The position numbers were made by a program, and so were the translations under genes. The notes below the pieces were generated by a model, which made no database searches, was not told the origin of the DNA, and was given only the letters and a program-made list of their open reading frames with translations. This document shows, in pieces, positions 3,004 through 63,334 of a stretch of DNA of 64,000 nt. This stretch comes from Allobosea sp. BK604 (GTDB lineage Bacteria; Pseudomonadota; Alphaproteobacteria; Rhizobiales; Beijerinckiaceae). The stretch's first letter is position 1. Every line of letters begins with the position of its first letter. The stretch spans positions 558,001-622,000 of the forward strand of contig NZ_SLZF01000003.1 of NCBI RefSeq assembly GCF_004341515.1. The letters are read 5' to 3'.

Positions 3004-3058
3004 ACACGGCCCATTGTCCCGGACCGGCCGCGTAGCCGCAGCTCCGGGATCACGCGTG

Positions 3059-3124
3059 CTCTGTCGATGGTTTAGAGACGGGTTCACCGATCAGGTTGAT
3101 TCAACCTGATCGGATCCGGCTCTA
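3059..3124. repeat. Family-B intergenic palindromic repeat between convergent genes
   Basis: Contains a 13-bp perfect inverted repeat, CCGATCAGGTTGA (3087-3099) and TCAACCTGATCGG (3101-3113), preceded by CTCTGTCGATGGTTTAGAG. The same pattern (CTCTATCGAT, GGCGG-TTCACC, ATCAGG) recurs at 38932-38973 and 54334-54376. It sits between convergent genes, so it can also work as a bidirectional terminator. Its edge supplies the TAG stop (3122-3124) of the minus-strand lipoprotein. Confidence 0.65.
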
Positions 3125-9968: not shown

Positions 9969-10407
9969 ACCCAATTCGCACGTGCCTGTGGCCGCGTGCC
10001 GGTCGGTGGGCATCCGGACAAGAGGCCGGACAGCCGCCAGGGGTTGGAAGACGGATGGAGGGGATGGACATCCCTCAAATCACGCTTCCCGGTTCTCGCA
10101 AGAGGATCGTTCCCCAACAGCGACCGGCAGCCGGAGGCGAAACCGGCGAACCCCGAATCTCCACGGGGGACGCAGCTTAAAGCAACGACGGAGCGGGCTT
10201 TTTTGGTCTCGTTGGTCCTCCAAAGGCCAACACCGAAGAGGCTTGTCCTTCATTGCCGGGCGTGCGGGGGCTTCCCCAATCGACGGTGTTTTCGGGTCCG
10301 GACGGTTCGTCCGCTGTTCTCGGCGTCTCCAACGCGCCGTGACCGCGTACGACTCACCCGGCGATACGTCGTATCGGCGCCGCTTGCGCCGGAGGGGAGT
10401 CGCGCCG
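9969..10407 (+). ncRNA. Long structured 5' leader of ornithine decarboxylase (speF-type RNA)
   Basis: About 440 nt of apparently non-coding sequence lie between a good promoter and the decarboxylase start. An RNA element named speF is established upstream of predicted ornithine decarboxylase genes in alphaproteobacteria (found with the SAM-II, serC, suhB and ybhL motifs), and position, size and downstream gene match. The stretch holds several complementary segments, such as GGGGATGGACATCCC near 10058-10072 and GGTCGGTGGGCATCCGGACAAGAGGCCGGAC near its start in two pieces. I did not fold it or align it to the Rfam model, so the exact boundaries are approximate. Confidence 0.65.
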
Positions 10408-20530: not shown

Positions 20531-20651
20531 GACGAGGTACCGCGATCAAGGCCTGCACTGGTCGGCAGGCAATCACCCTATAGTGCCTCAAAAGGCTGGC
20601 GCCCCGCCTTGCGGATGTCGCATGGGCGATATCCTCATGGGGATCAGCGTC

Positions 20652-20753
20652 TACCGCATTTTCGAGCGAAATAGGCACCGGTTCGCGGAAGGAACGCGAT
20701 AAATCAAAAGCCTGGAGAATTTTCGCGCTTCGAGGAAACGCGGAAGTTCTCTA
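20652..20753. repeat. Family-A MITE-like element, diverged copy
   Basis: Starts TACCGCATTTTCGAGCG and ends GGAAGTTCTCTA. It shares its right-hand TA with the left end of the neighbouring full copy, so two elements lie head to tail. Confidence 0.65.
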
Positions 20754-20855
20754 GAGCATTTTCGAGCGAAGTGGATACCGGTTCGCGTGAAGAAAATGCG
20801 TCAAAACAAGTAGATAGAGAATTTTCGCGGTTCGAAGAAACGCGGAAATGCTCTA
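20752..20855. repeat. Family-A MITE-like element, full copy (104 bp)
   Basis: Begins TAGAGCATTTTCG and ends GGAAATGCTCTA, giving 10-bp inverted termini (TAGAGCATTT and AAATGCTCTA). The interior has GTTCGCGTGAAGAAAATGCG and a second palindromic arm. The same 104-bp layout recurs inverted at 56132-56235. Its right edge provides the TAG stop codon (20853-20855) of the minus-strand TPR gene. Confidence 0.75.
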
Positions 20856-23009
20856 GTAGCGATTGATCCGCATCACGTCATCGATCGCCGCCAGGCCTGA
20901 CTGCGCCTGCGCTGAGCCATTGGCGCGGTAGAGCGCGCGAAACACCTTGCGCGCGTCGCCATACCGCCCGAGGTTGAAGTAGGACCAGCCGCGCAGCATC
21001 ATCAGGTCCGTGGTCTCAGGCGCGTAGCGTGCGCGCTCCTCCAATGTCACCAGGGCCGCGTTGTAGTTCTTGGCGTCGTAGAGCGCGTAGAAGCGCTCGG
21101 ACAGAAGAAGTGCCGTCATGTCCTGGCGGCGCGCCGGGGCGATCGGCGCCAGTGTAGCCGAGGCGATGGCGTCTGCGGTGAGCCCCTGCTGCAGCTGCGC
21201 ATAGACCTTCCCCGCCGCTGCATCCTGGACGACAGCGGCCGAGCCTGTGCGCAAGGCCGCCTCGAACGCTTCGGCCGCCGCGGCCGGGCGCTTGAGATTG
21301 AGCAGGCACCACCCTCGCGCCAGGGCGGCCGCGCCGGTGCCGCCGCCACCGCAGGTTCCGCCGGCCACGCGAACACGTGGCGACTGCGCGGCAGCTCGCT
21401 CCGGAGCCCTGTCCGCGCTGCGCTCGACCGGCCTTGTCTCCTCTGCTCTCGCAACTGCTTCCCGCCTCGTGAGCGGCAAGGGCTCACGGCTGGCGATCGC
21501 CGGCGGCTCGGCGTCAGGACGAGGCGTCTCCGGCCGGGACAACGGAGCCTGGCGGGCGCCAGGCCGGAGAATATCGGCGATGCGCCGCGAGCGCGGCCCC
21601 CATTCGGCGACCAGCTCGCGCAATCCTGCCTGGTCGCGCAGACGCTGGCGCGTGAGTGCGAGCCCATAGGCGGCCTGCTCCAGCCCGCGATCCCAGGCGA
21701 GCGCGGTCTCGAACCAGGTCTTGGCCGCGGCGGTCTGGCCGGAATTATAGGCGTACCAGCCGAGCCCGCTCGCCCCCGAGGCGTAGCGCTCGGCACTCAC
21801 CGTCTTGGCGATACGGCCGAGGACAGTCGGGTCGAGACGGGGCGGCGGATCCTGCGCGATCAGGGACGTCGCCGCGTCGAGATAGGCCTTGCGATTGGCG
21901 GCCTCGGCCTGCAGCCATTGCGAGCCGAGCTCTTCCGCCTGTTGGTGATCCCTGGCCGCGCTGAGTGCGAGCACGGCGCCCTCTGCCGCCTTGGCCCCAC
22001 CATTGCGGGCGAGCGACGTCTTGAACCAGGTCGTCGCCTTGGCCGGGTCATTATGCCGGAGCGCATAGAAACCAAGCAGCGTCGCATCGTCAGGCGTGCT
22101 CGCAGCTCCGGCAAGCGCCTCGATCCGGGCGATTTCCTCGGGCGTGGCGCTGAGGGAAGGCTCCTCGGCCGCCTTGCCGATATGCCGGCGCGCGAGATCG
22201 TCGCGAATGCTGGAGAATTCACCTGAGCGCTCCTGCCCAAGCAGCGCGATCGTCATCTCCTCCGGCAATGCCAGCAGGGCCTTCTGCATCGTCGCCAGCC
22301 GGTCGGCCGGGTTGGGGCAGTTGGTGAGGACATAGGAATAGGCGTCGCGGGCGCGATCGGCGCGCTTGGTCTGGACGAATGCATCGGCCACGCGCCAGAG
22401 CGCGTCGACATTGGCACATGTCAGCAGCGCCGGCGTCTCGGTGCCGATCCGGATCACCTGCTCCCATTGCCGCGCATTCGAGGCGTTGACGAGCCGCTGC
22501 GCCGCCTCGGCCGTGTCGAGCTGCTGGACGAGGTCGGGGGGCGGCTGCCAGTTCGGATCGGCGGTGCTGCGCTGGGCGATCGCCGCTCTCGCCTCGCTGA
22601 ATTTGCCTTCGCCGAACAGGCTCCACATGCGTGCGAGCTCGGGATCGCCCGTCGACACGGGCGCGGTCAGGTCCGTCGGCGGCTTCCATTCCGGATAGAG
22701 CGCGCGCAGCCGCGCCATCTCCGCCTCAAGCCGTCTGGTATCGCCCTGCGTCGCGAAATAGCGCAGGGCGCTTTCATCGACCACGGGAGGCGGCGAGGGC
22801 TGCCCTGGCGCGCCGGCAGGCGGGCGTGGCGTCTGGGCCAGCTCGACCTCGGGCTGCGGCTTTTCGGCAGGCGGCTTTCCCTGCGCGAAGGCTGTCCTGA
22901 CAACCGCCTGGAATTCCGGCGAGACCAATTGCTCATGGCCATAGCGCCCGAGGGCGTAGAACAGGCCGCCCGAAGCTGCGGCAATGAGCAGGACCGCCTT
23001 CACATGCAT
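20853..23009 (-). CDS. Cellulose-cluster TPR protein with N-terminal membrane anchor
   Basis: Protein of 718 residues. One hydrophobic segment at residues 4-20 (AVLLIAAASGGLFYALGRYG) anchors it or acts as a signal. A Pro-rich stretch (about 45-75) is followed by many TPR-like helical repeats, for example DDATLLGFYALRHNDPAKATTWFKTSLARNGGAKAAEGAVL, and again after a second low-complexity, Arg/Pro-rich linker (about 490-550). It occupies the place of BcsC but is much shorter and shows no C-terminal beta-barrel. Last gene of the bcs operon, overlapping the end of bcsZ by 10 bp. Probably a periplasmic scaffold for cellulose export; function inferred from position. The stop codon is supplied by a repeat. 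Confidence 0.75.
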   Translation of the reverse strand: MHVKAVLLIAAASGGLFYALGRYGHEQLVSPEFQAVVRTAFAQGKPPAEKPQPEVELAQTPRPPAGAPGQPSPPPVVDESALRYFATQGDTRRLEAEMARLRALYPEWKPPTDLTAPVSTGDPELARMWSLFGEGKFSEARAAIAQRSTADPNWQPPPDLVQQLDTAEAAQRLVNASNARQWEQVIRIGTETPALLTCANVDALWRVADAFVQTKRADRARDAYSYVLTNCPNPADRLATMQKALLALPEEMTIALLGQERSGEFSSIRDDLARRHIGKAAEEPSLSATPEEIARIEALAGAASTPDDATLLGFYALRHNDPAKATTWFKTSLARNGGAKAAEGAVLALSAARDHQQAEELGSQWLQAEAANRKAYLDAATSLIAQDPPPRLDPTVLGRIAKTVSAERYASGASGLGWYAYNSGQTAAAKTWFETALAWDRGLEQAAYGLALTRQRLRDQAGLRELVAEWGPRSRRIADILRPGARQAPLSRPETPRPDAEPPAIASREPLPLTRREAVARAEETRPVERSADRAPERAAAQSPRVRVAGGTCGGGGTGAAALARGWCLLNLKRPAAAAEAFEAALRTGSAAVVQDAAAGKVYAQLQQGLTADAIASATLAPIAPARRQDMTALLLSERFYALYDAKNYNAALVTLEERARYAPETTDLMMLRGWSYFNLGRYGDARKVFRALYRANGSAQAQSGLAAIDDVMRINRY

Positions 23010-35900: not shown

Positions 35901-35924
35901 ATTATATCAGCGACAGGAATGTCC

Positions 35925-37139
35925 ATGTCTGCCGAAACCCTTTCCGACAAGCCGCAGGGTCAGGCCGGGGAACCGCGCCGCGACCGGTTGAAGCTCGTCG
36001 AGACCGTCGCCGAGACGGCCAATCCGCAGCCGCAGGCCCGCCAGACCGGCGAGGCTGCCGCCAAGGCCGAGGCTCCCGCGGCGCAGAAGCCGAAGCGCAA
36101 CACCGTGCGCAAGCTCGGCCTCACCCTGCTCGCCGGCGTGGCGCTGACGGCCGGCGCCTATTACGGCGTCGACTGGTGGCGCAACGGCCGCTTCATCGTC
36201 ACCACCGACGATGCCTATGTCGGCGTCGAGATGGCGACGATCTCGGCCAAGCTCTCGGCCAACGTGACCAATGTCGCGGTCGCCCGCAACGAGCAGGTCA
36301 AGACGGGACAGCTGCTGGTCGCGCTCGATGATGGCGACCAGCGCATCGCGCTCGAGAGCGCCAAGGCCAAGAGCGCCACGGCCGTCGCGACCCTCTCGCG
36401 CATCGACAGCCAGATCGACGCCGGCAGGGCGAGCCTGCTGCAGGCTCAGGCCCAGGCCAATTCGGCCGAGGCCGATCTCGTGCGCGCCGATGCCGATTTC
36501 GCGCGCGCCAGCAAGCTCGCGGCCAATTCCTTCGGCTCGCAGGCGACGCTCGACGCCGCCACCGCGACCCGCGACAAGGCCCGCGCCGCGATCGCCAGCA
36601 CGGCGGCCGGCGTCAGCGCCGCCGAGGCCAATATCAAGGTGCTGCAGGCGCAGCGCGTCGAGGCCGCCCGCCAGCTCGACGAGCTCAAGGTCGCCGAGGA
36701 CAAGGCCGCGCGCGACCTTTCCTTCACCAAGATCTATGCGCCGATCGATGGGCTCGTCGCCAATACCGGCGTCCAGCTTGGCGACCTCGTCAGCCCCGGC
36801 AAGCGGCTGATGTCGATCGTCCCGCTCGACCAGATCTATGTCGATGCGAATTTCAAGGAGACGCAGGTTCGCGAGCTCAAGATCGGCGACAAGGCGACGA
36901 TCAAGGTCGATGCCTTTGACGGCCACAGCTACACGGGCACGGTCAGCGGCATCGCCGGCGGCACCGGCTCTGTCTTCTCGCTGCTGCCGCCCGATAACGC
37001 CACCGGCAACTTCACCAAGATCGTGCAACGCCTGCCGATCCGCATCGCGCTCTCGCCCGAGACGGCCGCCCGCGGCGTGCTGCGGCCAGGCATGTCGGTC
37101 GTCGTCTCGATCGACCCGCGCACTGGCGCTAAGCATTAG
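35925..37139 (+). CDS. emrA: HlyD/EmrA-family membrane fusion protein
   Basis: Periplasmic adaptor of 404 residues for a drug-efflux pump. After a cytoplasmic tail of about 55 residues comes one transmembrane helix (LGLTLLAGVALTAGAYYGVDWW), then the barrel-sandwich half FIVTTDDAYVGVEMATISAKLSANV, a long coiled coil (about 135-250, rich in Ala, Lys and Glu) and the second half SFTKIYAPIDGLVANTGVQLGDLVSPGKRLMSIVP in pieces. ATG 35925 is chosen for AGGA 6 nt upstream. The last codon is directly followed by a TAG that belongs to a repeat element. Operon with the DHA2 permease. Confidence 0.9.
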   Translation: MSAETLSDKPQGQAGEPRRDRLKLVETVAETANPQPQARQTGEAAAKAEAPAAQKPKRNTVRKLGLTLLAGVALTAGAYYGVDWWRNGRFIVTTDDAYVGVEMATISAKLSANVTNVAVARNEQVKTGQLLVALDDGDQRIALESAKAKSATAVATLSRIDSQIDAGRASLLQAQAQANSAEADLVRADADFARASKLAANSFGSQATLDAATATRDKARAAIASTAAGVSAAEANIKVLQAQRVEAARQLDELKVAEDKAARDLSFTKIYAPIDGLVANTGVQLGDLVSPGKRLMSIVPLDQIYVDANFKETQVRELKIGDKATIKVDAFDGHSYTGTVSGIAGGTGSVFSLLPPDNATGNFTKIVQRLPIRIALSPETAARGVLRPGMSVVVSIDPRTGAKH

Positions 37140-37202
37140 AGCATTTTCGCGCGAAACGGGTACCGGTTCGCGTGAAGAAAACGCGTTAAACAAAGAGATA
37201 GT
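37137..37202. repeat. Family-A MITE-like element, left half only
   Basis: TAGAGCATTTTCGCGCGAA through GTTCGCGTGAAGAAAACGCG, matching the first 60 bp of the full copy at 20752; the right half is absent. Its first three bases are the stop codon of the HlyD gene. Confidence 0.7.
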
Positions 37203-38934: not shown

Positions 38935-38973
38935 AACCTGATCGGTGAAGCCGCCTCAAAACGATCGATAGAG
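38932..38973. repeat. Family-B repeat fragment
   Basis: TAGAACCTGATCGGTGAAG, CCGCCTCAAAACGATCGATAGAG: the inverted complement of the elements at 3059 and 54334. The first TAG is the stop codon of the efflux permease. Confidence 0.6.
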
Positions 38974-39147
38974 TACGCGCCGACCCTCCTCGATTGCATA
39001 GCATTCTCTCTGAATCGGCAAGAATGCCGTCGAAAATCTCCGATTTTGCGAGATTCGACGATGCCTTGGCCGACCTGGTGCGAGATGTCGCAGCCGGCTC
39101 GCAATTGACTCCGGCGCCGGATTCAGACAAATATGATAGCAATATCA

Positions 39148-40742: not shown

Positions 40743-41285
40743 ATGGGCCCTCGCGTGACCGCCGTTGCCCTTGATGCTGGCCATGCCTTCAGCAAGCCGC
40801 GGCAGGACAGCATTCGCCTCGTCGCCGGACTCGGGGTCGAAGGTGACGCCCATTGCGGCGTCACGGTGAAGCACCGCTCACGCGTCGCCGTCGACCCGAC
40901 GCAGCCCAACCTGCGCCAGGTTCACCTCATCCACGAGGAACTGCTCGACGAGCTCAACACTTCCGGCTTCGAGCTCGCACCCGGCCAGATGGGCGAGAAC
41001 GTCACCACGCGCGGCATCGACCTGCTCGGCCTGCCGGTCGGCGCGCGGCTGAAGCTCGGCGGGGATGCCGAGATCGAGATCACCGGCCTGCGCAACCCTT
41101 GTGGCCAGATCGAAGCCTTTCGTCCCGGCCTGCTCAAGGCCGTGCTCGGCCGCGGCGCGGATGGCAGCCTGATCCGCAAGGCCGGCATCATGGGCGTCGT
41201 GCTGACGGGCGGCGAGATCCGCCCGGGCGACGCAATCACGATCGCCTTGCCGCCGGAACCGCATCGCCAGCTGGATCGCGTCTAG
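40743..41285 (+). CDS. MOSC-domain protein
   Basis: MOSC-fold protein of 180 residues, related to YiiM and molybdenum-cofactor sulfurase C-terminal domains. Key features are LVAGLGVEGDAHCGVTVKHRS (about 27-47), QMGENVTTRGIDLLGLPVGARLKLG (about 83-107) and the conserved Cys in LRNPCGQIEAF (about 116-126), which may carry sulfur or bind the cofactor. Likely role: handling of molybdopterin-bound substrates such as N-hydroxylated compounds. The start is ATG 40743 with GGAGAGACGC upstream. Its TAG stop belongs to a repeat fragment. Confidence 0.87.
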   Translation: MGPRVTAVALDAGHAFSKPRQDSIRLVAGLGVEGDAHCGVTVKHRSRVAVDPTQPNLRQVHLIHEELLDELNTSGFELAPGQMGENVTTRGIDLLGLPVGARLKLGGDAEIEITGLRNPCGQIEAFRPGLLKAVLGRGADGSLIRKAGIMGVVLTGGEIRPGDAITIALPPEPHRQLDRV

Positions 41286-41334
41286 AGCCGCATTTTCTTC
41301 ACGCGAACCGGTGTCCGCTTCGCTCGAAAATGCT
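41283..41334. repeat. Family-A MITE-like element, right-to-left half
   Basis: TAGAGCCGCATTTTCTTCACGCG through CTTCGCTCGAAAATGCTC: the same half-element as at 37137 but inverted. The leading TAG ends the MOSC gene. Confidence 0.65.
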
Positions 41335-41344
41335 CCAAAACAAA

Positions 41345-44746: not shown

Positions 44747-44844
44747 TAGAGTATTTCCGCGTTTCCCGCGAAAATTCTCTAGCCCTTTGCTTTAATGGAT
44801 TTTCTTCACGCGAACCGGAACTCACTTCGCTCGAGAATGCTCTA
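44747..44844. repeat. Family-A MITE-like element, full-length variant (98 bp)
   Basis: Starts TAGAGTATTTCCGCG and ends CTCGAGAATGCTCTA; inverted orientation relative to 20752. The CTA at 44842-44844 is the stop codon of the minus-strand amylo-glucosidase gene. Confidence 0.72.
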
Positions 44845-47046
44845 TTTCGAGATCAGAATTCTTGCGCTGCCGTGCCGCGAAAGAACATTGGCGGTGACAT
44901 CGAAACCGTAGCGATGCAGCCTCACATCGGCCGATGAAGTGCCAAGGCGCAGATTGCGGATCACGACCTCGTCGAGAAATTCCGGCATCACCGGCTCGTG
45001 GAACCGGATTTCATCCTGCTCATGATGGAGCTCGAGCCCCAGGCACGCGCCGAGCAGGCCGAAGACCGTGGCCGCCGACCAGGCCTGCGGCGCGCAGGCA
45101 ACCGGATAAGGCGTCGGTGCCCGATGCGGCCGCCGGTTGAACCCGCAAAACAGCTCCGGCAGGCGTGACATGTCCTGATGCCTGCCGGCGTCGAAGATGG
45201 CCGAGAAGACCCGGCTCGCTTCTGCTTTGAGGCCATAGCGGCCAAGCCCCAGGGCGATCAGCGCGTTGTCATGCGGCCATACCGAGCCGTTATGGTAGGA
45301 CATCGGGTTGTAGCGGGGCTGCCCGGCCGGGAGGGTGCGGATGCCCCAGCCGCTGAAGGCATCGGGCGTGAGCAGGTTCGCCGCGACCCGGGCCGCGCGA
45401 TCCGGGGCGGCGATGCCGGCAAACAGCGTATGGCCGGCATTGGACGCCGGCACGAGGCAGGGCCGCTTCTCGCCATCGAGCGCCAGCGCATAGGTCCCCA
45501 ATTCCTCGCTCCAGAATGCGCGCTCGAAATTGCAGCGCAGGCGCTCGGCCTCATCAGCCAAGGCCGAGGCCAGATCGGGCTGACCGAGCCTGCGCGCCAT
45601 GAAGGAGGCCTGCAGCTTGGCCGCATAGACGTAGGCCTGCACCTCACATAGCGCGATCGGTCCGACCGGGTCCGCGTTGTCGGCATGGAAGATCGCGTCG
45701 TGCGAATCCTTCCAGCCCTGGTTGGCCAGCCCGCTCGCACGGGCCCTCGCATATTCGACGAAGCCATCGCCATCGCGGTCGCCATAGTCGTCGATCCAAC
45801 GCAGCGCCGCGCAGATATTCGGCCATATCGCCCGGATGGTCTCGAGGTCGCCGGTGCGATGAAGGTAATGGCCGGCCAGCATGATGAAGAGCGGAGTGGC
45901 ATCGATCGTGCCGTAGTAGCGTCCGAAGGGGACCTCGCGCAGCCGCGCCATTTCGCCATGCCGCATCTCGTGCAGGATCTTGCCCGGCTGGGCATCGGCC
46001 TCCGGATCCACGGCCTGAGCCTGGGTGGCGGCGAGCGTGCGCAGGACCCCGCGCGCGATCGCGGGATCGATCCAGAGCATCAACAGCGCGGTGATGATGC
46101 CGTCCCGGCCGAACGTGGTGTTGAACCACGGGATGCCGGCATAGGGATAGGGGCCGTACTGGCCCCAGGTGAGCAGCGTATAGACGTCCGACGTCGCCCG
46201 GCAGAGCATGTCGTTGAACGCCTGGTTCGACGTCGAGACCGTCGCGATCTGCGCGGTCGCCGTGCGGTGCGCGCGCCGCGTATCGCGATAGGCAGCGAAG
46301 AAATTCACCGGCGGCAACGCTTTCACGGCGCCGTCGATGCAAGCGATCGTGAGGAATACCGAGCTTTGCTCATACGGCCCGAGCATGACCTCGACCGTCA
46401 TGCGGTGGGGGTCGAGCGCGATCGGCTCCGGGCTCATCTGAAGCACCGTCTTGCGTTCGATACGATCGAGACCGAGATAGCGGTACTCGACCCGATCGGG
46501 ACCGGTCACTTCGACCGTGCTCGTGCCGCGCCGCAGGCGCTGCGTGCCCCGCACCTCGAACATGTCGTGGAAGTCGGCCCCGAACAGAATGTCGATGCGC
46601 AACCGGCGCGGTACCGGACCGTAGTTCCTGATGCTGATGCGCTCGTAGCAGACCGCCCGCCACAGGAATTTGGTTCGGTGCAGGAAGATCGTGTCTCGCG
46701 CCATCCGCTCGTCGCCGAGGCGAAGATCCGGATTGGTGAGCTCGACCGAGAGCGCTGCCTTGTCCTCGTGCACCGACGAGCTCAGCAGCAACGGCCGCTT
46801 GCCCTCCACGCGGAGCTCCAGATGCGACAAGAAGCGGGTATCGCGATAATAGAGCCCCTCCGCCGTGTCGCTCAGCGTGCCAAGGTCGCCATGCGCGTCA
46901 AGCACGGCGAACGCGTCGCCGTGCTTGAGATTGCGCAGGACGTGATCGGTCAGCGAGGTCCTGGCCTCGATCTCGTATTCGGACCATAGGTTCGGTCCGT
47001 TCGGCTCAGGTGTCGGTCGCGCAAACGCGCGGATGTTCTCCGGCAT
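44842..47046 (-). CDS. Amylo-alpha-1,6-glucosidase / glycogen-debranching-type enzyme
   Basis: Protein of 734 residues. The N-terminal domain (about 30-240: FAVLDAHGDLGTLSDTAEGLYYRDTRFLSHLEL) is of the bacterial debranching-enzyme N-terminal type; the C-terminal (alpha/alpha)6 catalytic part has FGRDG at 312-316, FGRYYGTIDATPLFIMLAG (about 378-396) and YHNGSVWPHDNALIALGL (near 600), a GH-type active-site layout. Likely substrate: branched alpha-glucan or the product of the adjacent glycosyltransferase. It starts 15 bp after that gene's stop, so they form an operon. The TAG stop comes from the repeat at 44747. Confidence 0.88.
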   Translation of the reverse strand: MPENIRAFARPTPEPNGPNLWSEYEIEARTSLTDHVLRNLKHGDAFAVLDAHGDLGTLSDTAEGLYYRDTRFLSHLELRVEGKRPLLLSSSVHEDKAALSVELTNPDLRLGDERMARDTIFLHRTKFLWRAVCYERISIRNYGPVPRRLRIDILFGADFHDMFEVRGTQRLRRGTSTVEVTGPDRVEYRYLGLDRIERKTVLQMSPEPIALDPHRMTVEVMLGPYEQSSVFLTIACIDGAVKALPPVNFFAAYRDTRRAHRTATAQIATVSTSNQAFNDMLCRATSDVYTLLTWGQYGPYPYAGIPWFNTTFGRDGIITALLMLWIDPAIARGVLRTLAATQAQAVDPEADAQPGKILHEMRHGEMARLREVPFGRYYGTIDATPLFIMLAGHYLHRTGDLETIRAIWPNICAALRWIDDYGDRDGDGFVEYARARASGLANQGWKDSHDAIFHADNADPVGPIALCEVQAYVYAAKLQASFMARRLGQPDLASALADEAERLRCNFERAFWSEELGTYALALDGEKRPCLVPASNAGHTLFAGIAAPDRAARVAANLLTPDAFSGWGIRTLPAGQPRYNPMSYHNGSVWPHDNALIALGLGRYGLKAEASRVFSAIFDAGRHQDMSRLPELFCGFNRRPHRAPTPYPVACAPQAWSAATVFGLLGACLGLELHHEQDEIRFHEPVMPEFLDEVVIRNLRLGTSSADVRLHRYGFDVTANVLSRHGSARILISK

Positions 47047-54333: not shown

Positions 54334-54428
54334 CTCTATCGATGATTGAGAGGCGGATTCCACCAATCAGGCTGTTAAATCAAAGGGATAGAGAATCTGT
54401 GCGATTCGGTGAAACGCGGAAATGCTCT
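54334..54428. repeat. Chimeric repeat: family-B left part fused to family-A right part
   Basis: CTCTATCGATGATTGAGAGG...ACCAATCAGGC matches family B (3059, 38932). From about 54377, GATAGAGAATCTGTGCGATTCGG and GAAACGCGGAAATGCTCT matches the right half of the family-A element at 20752. Confidence 0.6.
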
Positions 54429-54449
54429 GGTTGAAGAAGGAGATGGGTC

Positions 54450-56131: not shown

Positions 56132-56235
56132 TAGAGCATTTCCGCGTTTCCTCGAATCGCCGAAACTCTCTATCTATTTGCTTTAACGCATTTTCTTCAC
56201 GCGAACCGGTGTCCACTTCGCTCGAAAATGCTCTA
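56132..56235. repeat. Family-A MITE-like element, full copy (104 bp)
   Basis: Starts TAGAGCATTTCCGCG and ends CTCGAAAATGCTCTA; the reverse complement of the copy at 20752-20855, also 104 bp. Both ends carry TA. Confidence 0.75.
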
Positions 56236-61790: not shown

Positions 61791-63242
61791 ATGCTGAAGC
61801 TCAACGACCCCTCGCTGCTGAAATCGCAATGCCATGTCGACGGCGGCTGGATCGGCGACGGCACGGACGCAGTCGACAATCCTGCGACCGGCGAGACCCT
61901 GGCAAAAGTGCCGCGCTTCGGCACGGAGGAGACCACCGCGGCGGTCGAGGCGGCCTCGCGCGCCTTCAAGCCTTGGGCGAAGAAGAGCGCCAAGGAGCGC
62001 TCGGCGATCCTGCGCAAATGGTTCGAGCTGATCATGGCGAACCAGGAGGACATCGCGCAGATCATGACGGCCGAGCAGGGCAAGCCGCTCAGCGAGGCCC
62101 GCGGCGAGGTCGCCTATGCCGCCTCCTTCGTCGAGTTCTACGCCGAGGAAGCCAAGCGCATCTATGGCGAGACCATCCCCTCGCCCTTCCCGAACTCACG
62201 CATCATCGTGCAGAAGCAGCCGGTCGGCGTCTGCGCCGCGATCACGCCCTGGAACTTCCCGGCCGCGATGATCACCCGTAAATGCGCGCCTGGCCTCGCC
62301 GCCGGCTGCACCTTCGTGGTCAAGCCCGCGCCCGATACCCCGCTCACCGCGCTCGCCCTGATGGAGCTTGCCGTCCGCGCCGGCTTCCCGGCCGGGGTGC
62401 TCAATATCGTCACTGGCGATGCGGTCGCAGTCGGCAAGGTCATGACCACGCATCCGGCGGTGCGCTTCGTCGGCTTCACCGGCTCGACCCCGGTCGGCAA
62501 GCTGCTGATGCAGCAGGCGGCCTCGACCGTGAAGAAGGTCGGGCTCGAGCTCGGCGGCAATGCCCCCTTCATCGTCTTCGACGATGCCGATCTCGACGCG
62601 GCCGTGCAGGGCGCGATCATCGCCAAGTACCGCAACATGGGCCAGACCTGTGTCTGCACCAACCGGCTCTTCGTGCAGGACGGCATCCATGATGATTTCG
62701 TCGCCAAGTTCGCCGGCGAGGTCGCGAAGATGAAGGTCGGCAACGGCGCCGAGGTCGGCGTGGTGCAGGGCCCGCTGATCAACGAGCGCGCCATCGAGAA
62801 GGTCGAGCGTCATGTCGCGGACGCTGTCGCGAATGGCGCCAAGGTCGTGGTCGGTGGCCATCGCCACGCGCTTGGCCGCACCTTCTTCGAGCCGACCGTG
62901 CTCTCGGGCGTCACGACGAAAATGCTGGTGACGAACGAGGAGACCTTTGGCCCGGTCGCGCCGGTCTACCGCTTCTCGACCGAGGAGGAAGTGGTGCGGA
63001 TGGCGAACGACACGCCCTTCGGCCTTGCCGCCTATTTCTATTCGAAGGATCTCGGCCGCGCCTTCCGCGTCGCCGAGGAGCTCGAATACGGCATGGTCGG
63101 CATCAACTCCGCCATTCTCGGCACCGAGGTCGCACCCTTCGGCGGCGTCAAGGAATCCGGGCTCGGCCGCGAGGGCTCGCTGCACGGCATGGATGAGTTC
63201 GTCGAGATCAAGTACATGCTCGTCGGCGGGCTCCAGGCCTAG
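61791..63242 (+). CDS. gabD: NAD(P)-dependent succinate-semialdehyde dehydrogenase
   Basis: Aldehyde dehydrogenase of 483 residues that oxidises succinate semialdehyde to succinate in 4-aminobutyrate use. MLKLNDPSLLKSQCHVDGGWI matches the start of E. coli GabD (482 residues), so 61791 is preferred over 61776 and 61722. The NAD site is GFTGSTPVGKLLM (about 226-238), the general base lies in LELGGNAPF (about 252-260), and the catalytic Cys is in GQTCVCTNR (about 284-292). It follows the accessory stretch and ends near a repeat fragment. Confidence 0.93.
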   Translation: MLKLNDPSLLKSQCHVDGGWIGDGTDAVDNPATGETLAKVPRFGTEETTAAVEAASRAFKPWAKKSAKERSAILRKWFELIMANQEDIAQIMTAEQGKPLSEARGEVAYAASFVEFYAEEAKRIYGETIPSPFPNSRIIVQKQPVGVCAAITPWNFPAAMITRKCAPGLAAGCTFVVKPAPDTPLTALALMELAVRAGFPAGVLNIVTGDAVAVGKVMTTHPAVRFVGFTGSTPVGKLLMQQAASTVKKVGLELGGNAPFIVFDDADLDAAVQGAIIAKYRNMGQTCVCTNRLFVQDGIHDDFVAKFAGEVAKMKVGNGAEVGVVQGPLINERAIEKVERHVADAVANGAKVVVGGHRHALGRTFFEPTVLSGVTTKMLVTNEETFGPVAPVYRFSTEEEVVRMANDTPFGLAAYFYSKDLGRAFRVAEELEYGMVGINSAILGTEVAPFGGVKESGLGREGSLHGMDEFVEIKYMLVGGLQA

Positions 63243-63248
63243 GCAGCC

Positions 63249-63310
63249 TAGAGCTTGTCAGCGAAGCGGGTACCGGTTCGCGTCGAGAAAATGCGATAAA
63301 ACAAAAGCCT
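63249..63310. repeat. Family-A MITE-like element, left half, diverged
   Basis: TAGAGCTTGTCAGCGAAGCGGG through GTTCGCGTCGAGAAAATGCG, nine bases after the dehydrogenase stop. The right half is missing. Confidence 0.6.
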
Positions 63311-63334
63311 AATCGCGCCGCCTCGCGGCGCCCC

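Follow-up and report, generated by a model that had tools for sequence, protein, structure and literature searches.

A short TA-flanked two-hairpin repeat at the stop codons of genes in Allobosea sp. BK604

The repeat in the window and in the genome

In a 64-kb stretch of the Allobosea sp. BK604 genome (hereafter the window, which sits within a genome of 7.63 Mb), four genes end in a TAG codon that belongs to a short repeated element. A first-pass annotation of this DNA had proposed that the element supplies stop codons and may thereby have redefined the C-termini of the proteins. The question that the locus raises is, then, whether the element made these stops or entered stops that were already there.

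The four genes code for a TPR protein, an HlyD-family protein, a MOSC protein and a glycosidase of the glycogen-debranching type (44842-47046, minus strand), names that Pfam backs, and in all four the stop codon is indeed the TAG of the element. A full-length copy on the plus strand (20752-20855) provides with its right end the TAG of the TPR gene (20853-20855, minus strand), and a diverged copy lies in tandem with it (20652-20753, plus), the TA at 20752-20753 being common to both. The HlyD-family gene (35919-37139, plus) closes with the TAG at 37137-37139, which belongs to a left-unit copy (37137-37199, plus), while the glycosidase stop (44842-44844, minus) lies at the end of a full-length copy whose second hairpin has lost 6 nt (44747-44844, minus). 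The copy at the MOSC stop (TAG at 41283-41285, gene on the plus strand) is present as first described, but is better read as a rearranged remnant, composed of a right tip and a left unit, in reverse orientation (41283-41338, minus). Away from these genes we found a right-half intergenic fragment whose end TA has decayed to TG (54374-54430, plus), a full-length intergenic copy at a TTAG site away from stops (56132-56235, minus) and a decayed left-unit fragment (63249-63311, plus). The last of these was also reported in the right place, although its tip is not in a stop codon but 6 bp beyond the one that ends the gene at 61791-63242.

All the copies and partial copies first noted were thus recovered at their places, and their likeness is not due to chance: the left 23 nt of the element have 330 matches in the genome with at most three mismatches, against none for the reversed pattern, and the 45-nt left hairpin has 242 matches genome-wide, against none in the control. 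Within 1.99 Mb of the genome (G000, about one quarter of the total) there are 123 copies, 89 of them full-length and many of the partial ones retaining the left unit alone. The element measures 104 nt in 70 of the 89 full copies, both TAs counted, so that the net insertion is 102 bp. Its ends are the inverted repeats TAGAGCATTT and AAATGCTCTA with TA at the boundaries, which is kept at the left end of 71 of 117 copies and at the right end of 56 of 90, the remainder having mostly decayed to CA or TG.

A single strand of the element folds into two hairpins and a linker, the two strands of the copy at 20752-20855 giving fold z-scores of -5.1 and -4.5. When 20 copies from several genera are aligned (two rows being without some left-end letters), 93.2% of the hairpin cells are paired, a value that none of 500 shuffles attains. 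Covariation across the two hairpins involves 10 pairs changed on both sides and 57 such cells, against a shuffle mean of 22.1 and at most 8 in slid controls. At element position 78, in the apical part of hairpin 2, 41 of the 70 copies that are 104 nt long read GATTC, as do 14 of the 20 aligned copies (counted from the alignment list); the window copy at 20752 has GGTTC in place of GATTC. The more general motif GANTC occurs within 51 of the 89 full copies, where about 0.14 sites would be expected per copy. The element can be read through in one plus frame (77 of the 89 copies) and in one minus frame (81 of 89). No Rfam family overlapped the element at gathering score, and the sole match below threshold in 20600-20900, with 15 bits against a gathering score of 59.8 (E 0.5), concerned an sRNA family of Brucella. 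The element is a TA-flanked two-hairpin MITE of high copy number.

Among 41 genomes searched, matches to the element at E 0.001 are present in 23 of the 25 genomes of the genus (this one included) and in 1 of 16 genomes elsewhere in the order, where the match is weak. Copy number within the genus goes from none found, in 2 of the 25 genomes, to more than 300. Across the order, 4 of 397 genomes matched an exact-tip pattern, a search that decayed copies would probably have escaped. The best 20 of 94 matching plasmid records cover 84-100% of the element length at 73-83%, and are mostly from Rhizobium, Shinella and other Hyphomicrobiales; the phages searched with the element gave no match. In a genome of another family of the order (G425), two repeats of 105 nt (L310 and L315) have TAGAGCATTT tips and a different interior, and may represent a further MITE belonging to this IS630 group.

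Stop codons and the proteins that end in them

That the element supplies stop codons is a claim that extends well beyond the window. An element end falls on the stop of a called gene in 54 of the 123 copies (47 TAG and 7 TAA by count of the listing), 53 of them exactly and one within the tolerance of 1 nt; gene calls here and in the congener G019 come from our own codon-usage caller. The other 69 copies comprise 63 that are intergenic, 5 that overlap a gene and 1 inside a gene. In 400 kb of G019, 5 of 14 copies are at stops. Placement was also assessed against deposited annotation in plasmids, where 14 of the best 20 of the 94 records matched by blastn were examined and 10 had annotation. The start of the element lies exactly on a deposited stop in six of these 10 (Xanthobacter, Shinella and Rhizobium, two records being one locus); the four off-stop records include two of one locus, one in which the element overlaps a gene start and one in which it lies 5 bp past the stop.

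The presence of element bases within the stops of the four window genes is what the idea of new stops, with truncated or altered C-termini as the consequence, was founded on, and the ends of related proteins leave it next to no credence. The TPR protein terminates at the same residue in 28 of the 28 congeners with a match (29 foreign loci were given), the MOSC protein in 29 of 29 and the HlyD-family protein in 6 of 6 Bosea relatives, which are its six best named relatives (67-72%) and point to Bosea as the probable genus of the genome. For these three genes the congener C-termini rule the formation of new stops out. By a tip-string test that covered up to 140 nt, a nearby element is present in only 1 of the 28 TPR and 2 of the 29 MOSC congeners and in none of the others, so that ends at the same residue without the element are found within the genus. 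Two congeners have a copy of their own at the MOSC gene, one within the same stop codon (L293, G057) and one at, or just after, the stop (L290, G019). Across 80 HlyD loci from many genera the terminal residue is the same in only 8, an end too variable to permit judgement beyond the genus. For the glycosidase the comparison is mixed: three of eight relatives have the same end, whereas four are two residues longer and one is four residues longer, and here the protein with the element is the shorter one, as the formation of a new stop would have it.

A further observation again speaks against new stops: after the distal TA, 46 of the 47 full copies at stops have a purine, as they must if the stop was a native TAR. 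Because the element targets YTAR (see below), a site whose TA occupies codon positions 1-2 is almost always a TAR stop before the insertion.

Filled and empty sites could be compared in Rhizobium, in three cases. In the first, a length difference of 102 bp lies at a TAG stop, and filled and empty strains alike have a coding sequence of 198 nt in all those examined; outside the insert the sequences are identical at 577/601 and 585/602 positions. In the second, R. anhuiense has TAA where Rhizobium sp. BT04 has TAG plus the element, and the coding sequence is 1035 nt in both, the pair differing also by one extra A downstream. The third case is a FadR-type gene that ends in TAA in two relatives and in TAG in the filled R. 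lentis. The filled gene is 708 nt long against 705, that is, one codon longer, which would fit an altered C-terminus, in a comparison whose left flank aligns poorly. No empty site was found with the Shinella copy as start, nor for the Bosea copies. These pairs show that the TA target is duplicated on insertion and that coding sequence length is unchanged by the 102-bp insertion in two of the three cases, identical lengths that count once more against new stops. The element enters pre-existing stop codons and does not redefine the C-termini of the TPR, MOSC and HlyD proteins, contrary to what had been proposed.

The single copy inside a gene (1 of 123) lies in a peptide-type ABC transporter ATPase (L014:5429-7075; G000 C3:105429-107075), where the first ATPase domain is lengthened by 34 residues in frame. 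The domain profile continues from one side of the insert (positions 14-86) to the other (82-137). The insert is absent from all 11 relatives compared, the closest of which (about 90% identity) has 1 residue where this protein has 35.

Target site and transposase

In the 41 full copies that retain both TAs unchanged, the sites are 22 CTAG, 12 TTAG, 2 CTAA, 2 ATAG and one each of TTAA, CTAC and GTAA. Ten of the 41 are non-stop copies, and eight of these are also at CTAG or TTAG. The target of the element is YTAR, mostly CTAG.

The element had been taken for one mobilized by IS630/Tc1-type transposases, and the TA duplication in the Rhizobium pairs and the tips of an IS630 copy uphold this. A search with the DDE_3 profile found one IS630-type copy in the genome (L109:1396-2547), with two ORFs, bearing HTH and DDE_3 domains, whose overlap is close to a run of A, the arrangement of frameshifted IS630 elements. 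Its tips (TAGAGCGTTT) are identical to those of the element (TAGAGCATTT) at 9-10 of the first 11 bases; this is a likeness of the tip, and none was found past it. To the extent of these tip bases, the element has its ends in common with an IS630 element of this genome. A copy of the element abuts the IS630 copy, one TA being common to both. The string TAGAGC[AG]TTT is present in 10 of 30 IS630 loci of the genus, where it may belong to nearby elements. Copies of the element also lie next to each other, with 11 adjacent pairs no more than 12 bp apart in the 1.99 Mb, 5 of them spaced as if one TA were shared. A preference of IS630 for CTAG is stated in the accessible text of PMC6811581, which cites Tenzen and Ohtsubo 1991. 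Judging from target and tip sequences, we infer that the element is moved in trans by an IS630/Tc1-type transposase.

A YTAR target would also suit a transposase of the IS5/IS427 type, the family of which IS711 is a member, and the candidate would then be an IS427-group element of the genus having GAGCATTT ends. IS711 is described as duplicating TA at YTAR in Brucella, where it was found inserted at the repeat Bru-RS1 (PMC3163539), and a Pseudomonas MITE tentatively put with IS5 is said to use CTAG or YTAA (PMC3189936), but a search of our genome with DUF4096, a profile that omits some IS5 transposases, returned one degenerate copy with two stops, and it is the IS630 copy that has the TA-GAGC tip and abuts the element. 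We therefore regard a mover of the IS5/IS427 type as very improbable.

Placement at stops and relation to known repeats

The position of the element at stops far exceeds what non-coding TA sites would give: 47 of the 89 full copies have an end on a stop, whereas this is true of 6.5% of non-coding TAs in general (P 6e-32). When the null model takes into account the tetranucleotide and the orientation of the genes, 27.3 of 88 copies are expected at stops and 47 observed (P 2.8e-6; one full copy without two called neighbors was omitted). A narrower null was built on the availability of CTAG, CTAA and TTAA sites within 60 bp of a stop. In convergent gaps, which contain 44 of the 88 full copies, the observed 23 of 33 does not differ from the 79 of 108 of the null (P 0.82), whereas in tandem gaps an excess remains (20 of 26 against 113 of 225, P 0.012). 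Outside the elements, the 1.99 Mb contains 111 CTAG in coding sequence, 313 in intergenic DNA and 110 in stops, and the coding ones are about 45-fold rarer than base composition predicts (111 against some 5,000, in called coding sequences). Since CTAG is so rare in coding DNA, stops make up a large share of the CTAG sites at which an insertion is tolerated. Stop placement mostly follows from the preference for CTAG, the scarcity of coding CTAG and the avoidance of genes and their upstream regions. The 47 copies observed against 27.3 and the excess in tandem gaps mean that some bias is left unexplained.

Taken as a whole, we consider it very probable that the element is a 104-nt MITE (102 bp net plus a duplicated TA) which an IS630/Tc1-type transposase moves in trans, and that it inserts at YTAR, preferably CTAG, and duplicates the TA. 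Both ends read TA-GAGC, and insertion into a TAG or a TAA would therefore rebuild a TAG at the same codon and leave the protein unchanged. Selection against insertions in genes and their upstream regions would account for the rest of the distribution. An insertion at CTAG would leave CTAG at both junctions, from which tandem copies with one TA, and the IS630 copy abutting the element, could have arisen. The placement at stops would then be neutral rather than useful.

The residual excess over the tetranucleotide and orientation null and in tandem gaps could mean that the insertion machinery recognizes stops by something beyond DNA sequence, for instance through coupling to translation termination or to transcript ends. 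We give this very little weight, as there is no excess within 60 bp of the stop in convergent gaps and, in tandem gaps, purifying selection on the upstream region of the next gene would give the same pattern.

A use for the element at 3' ends, in forming transcript ends, protecting mRNA or presenting a CcrM-methylated loop, would have selection place it at stops. The hairpins kept across genera by two-sided changes, the GATTC and GANTC motifs in the loop and the half of the full copies that lie in convergent gaps all agree with such a function, but mobility alone can conserve hairpins, and site availability alone gives the observed fraction at stops in convergent gaps. Moreover, copy number varies from none found to more than 300 within the genus, and 20600-20900, the sole stretch scanned, has no terminator-like site. 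Overall, retention for a 3'-end function seems unlikely, and we return to neutral insertion by an IS630/Tc1-type transposase as the preferred explanation.

The element resembles the RIME, CIR and Bru-RS repeats of the Alphaproteobacteria, and MITEs or two-armed repeats of this kind are already known; its CIR-type layout, the matches in rhizobial plasmids and the status of RIME as rhizobial repeats place it among them. RIME1 reportedly is about 108 nt long with two palindromes (Osteras et al. 1995). The Rhizobium-specific intergenic mosaic elements (RIME) are described as repeated intergenic elements of rhizobia (PMC2245857, PMC2573895), beside which we set our element by description and by its rhizobial plasmid matches, not by RIME1 or RIME2 sequence; stop-codon placement is unmentioned in the accessible parts of these two accounts. 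The CcrM-associated repeats (CIR) of Caulobacter and Brucella have, according to the available text of a 2007 review (PMC2229807), about 110 bp in two arms and a linker, with TA termini and GANTC in the terminal loop, the same layout as here. In that text, however, CIR are tabulated without a terminal inverted repeat, have stops in all six frames and are never intragenic, whereas our element has inverted ends, two open frames in most copies and one copy inside a gene. Bru-RS1 and Bru-RS2 of Brucella are reported as palindromic intergenic repeats of 103-105 bp and, compared by description, are alike in size and in the association with an IS at YTAR, although the IS partner of our element appears to be an IS630. 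Partial accounts of RUP of S. pneumoniae, which goes with IS630-Spn1, and of MITEPlu5/ERIC give MITEs of 107 and 123 bp with a TA target and, as in our element, tips like those of IS630-family IS; RUP is said to be commoner than expected between convergent genes. Unlike what we find, those accounts, as far as they were available, contain no stop-codon placement. No report of MITE placement in stop codons was found in the open-licence literature, judged by titles and the openings of abstracts.

Stop codons might be the standing safe harbor of the whole RIME/CIR-like family of two-armed repeats, an extension on which we are evenly divided. A transposase that needs YTAR and ends that read TA-G from both sides would form a self-restoring pair, in which each insertion into TAG or TAA would rebuild a TAG at no cost to the protein sequence and regenerate two CTAG targets. 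If true, this would explain the hundreds of copies and give such repeats a mechanism of mobility, a matter that the accessible text of the 2007 review (PMC2229807) called unresolved and on which it asked for more information. The findings on the element themselves provide a simple, testable rule for where repeats of this common class accumulate and why they are tolerated, made of target preference, coding scarcity of the target and ends that rebuild a stop. For annotators, the consequence is that a repeat has not necessarily altered a protein whose stop codon lies within it.

The window holds other features. A second repeat of 45 nt occurs at 3053-3097 and 38935-38979, as an 87% inverted match, and has only five exact cores in the 1.99 Mb; in Bosea sp. 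Tri-44 (L200) the stop of the HlyD gene is followed by a string similar to it. Lastly, Rfam recognizes the speF leader and the alphaproteobacterial sRNA ar45 in the segments at 10210-10357 and 9969-10202.
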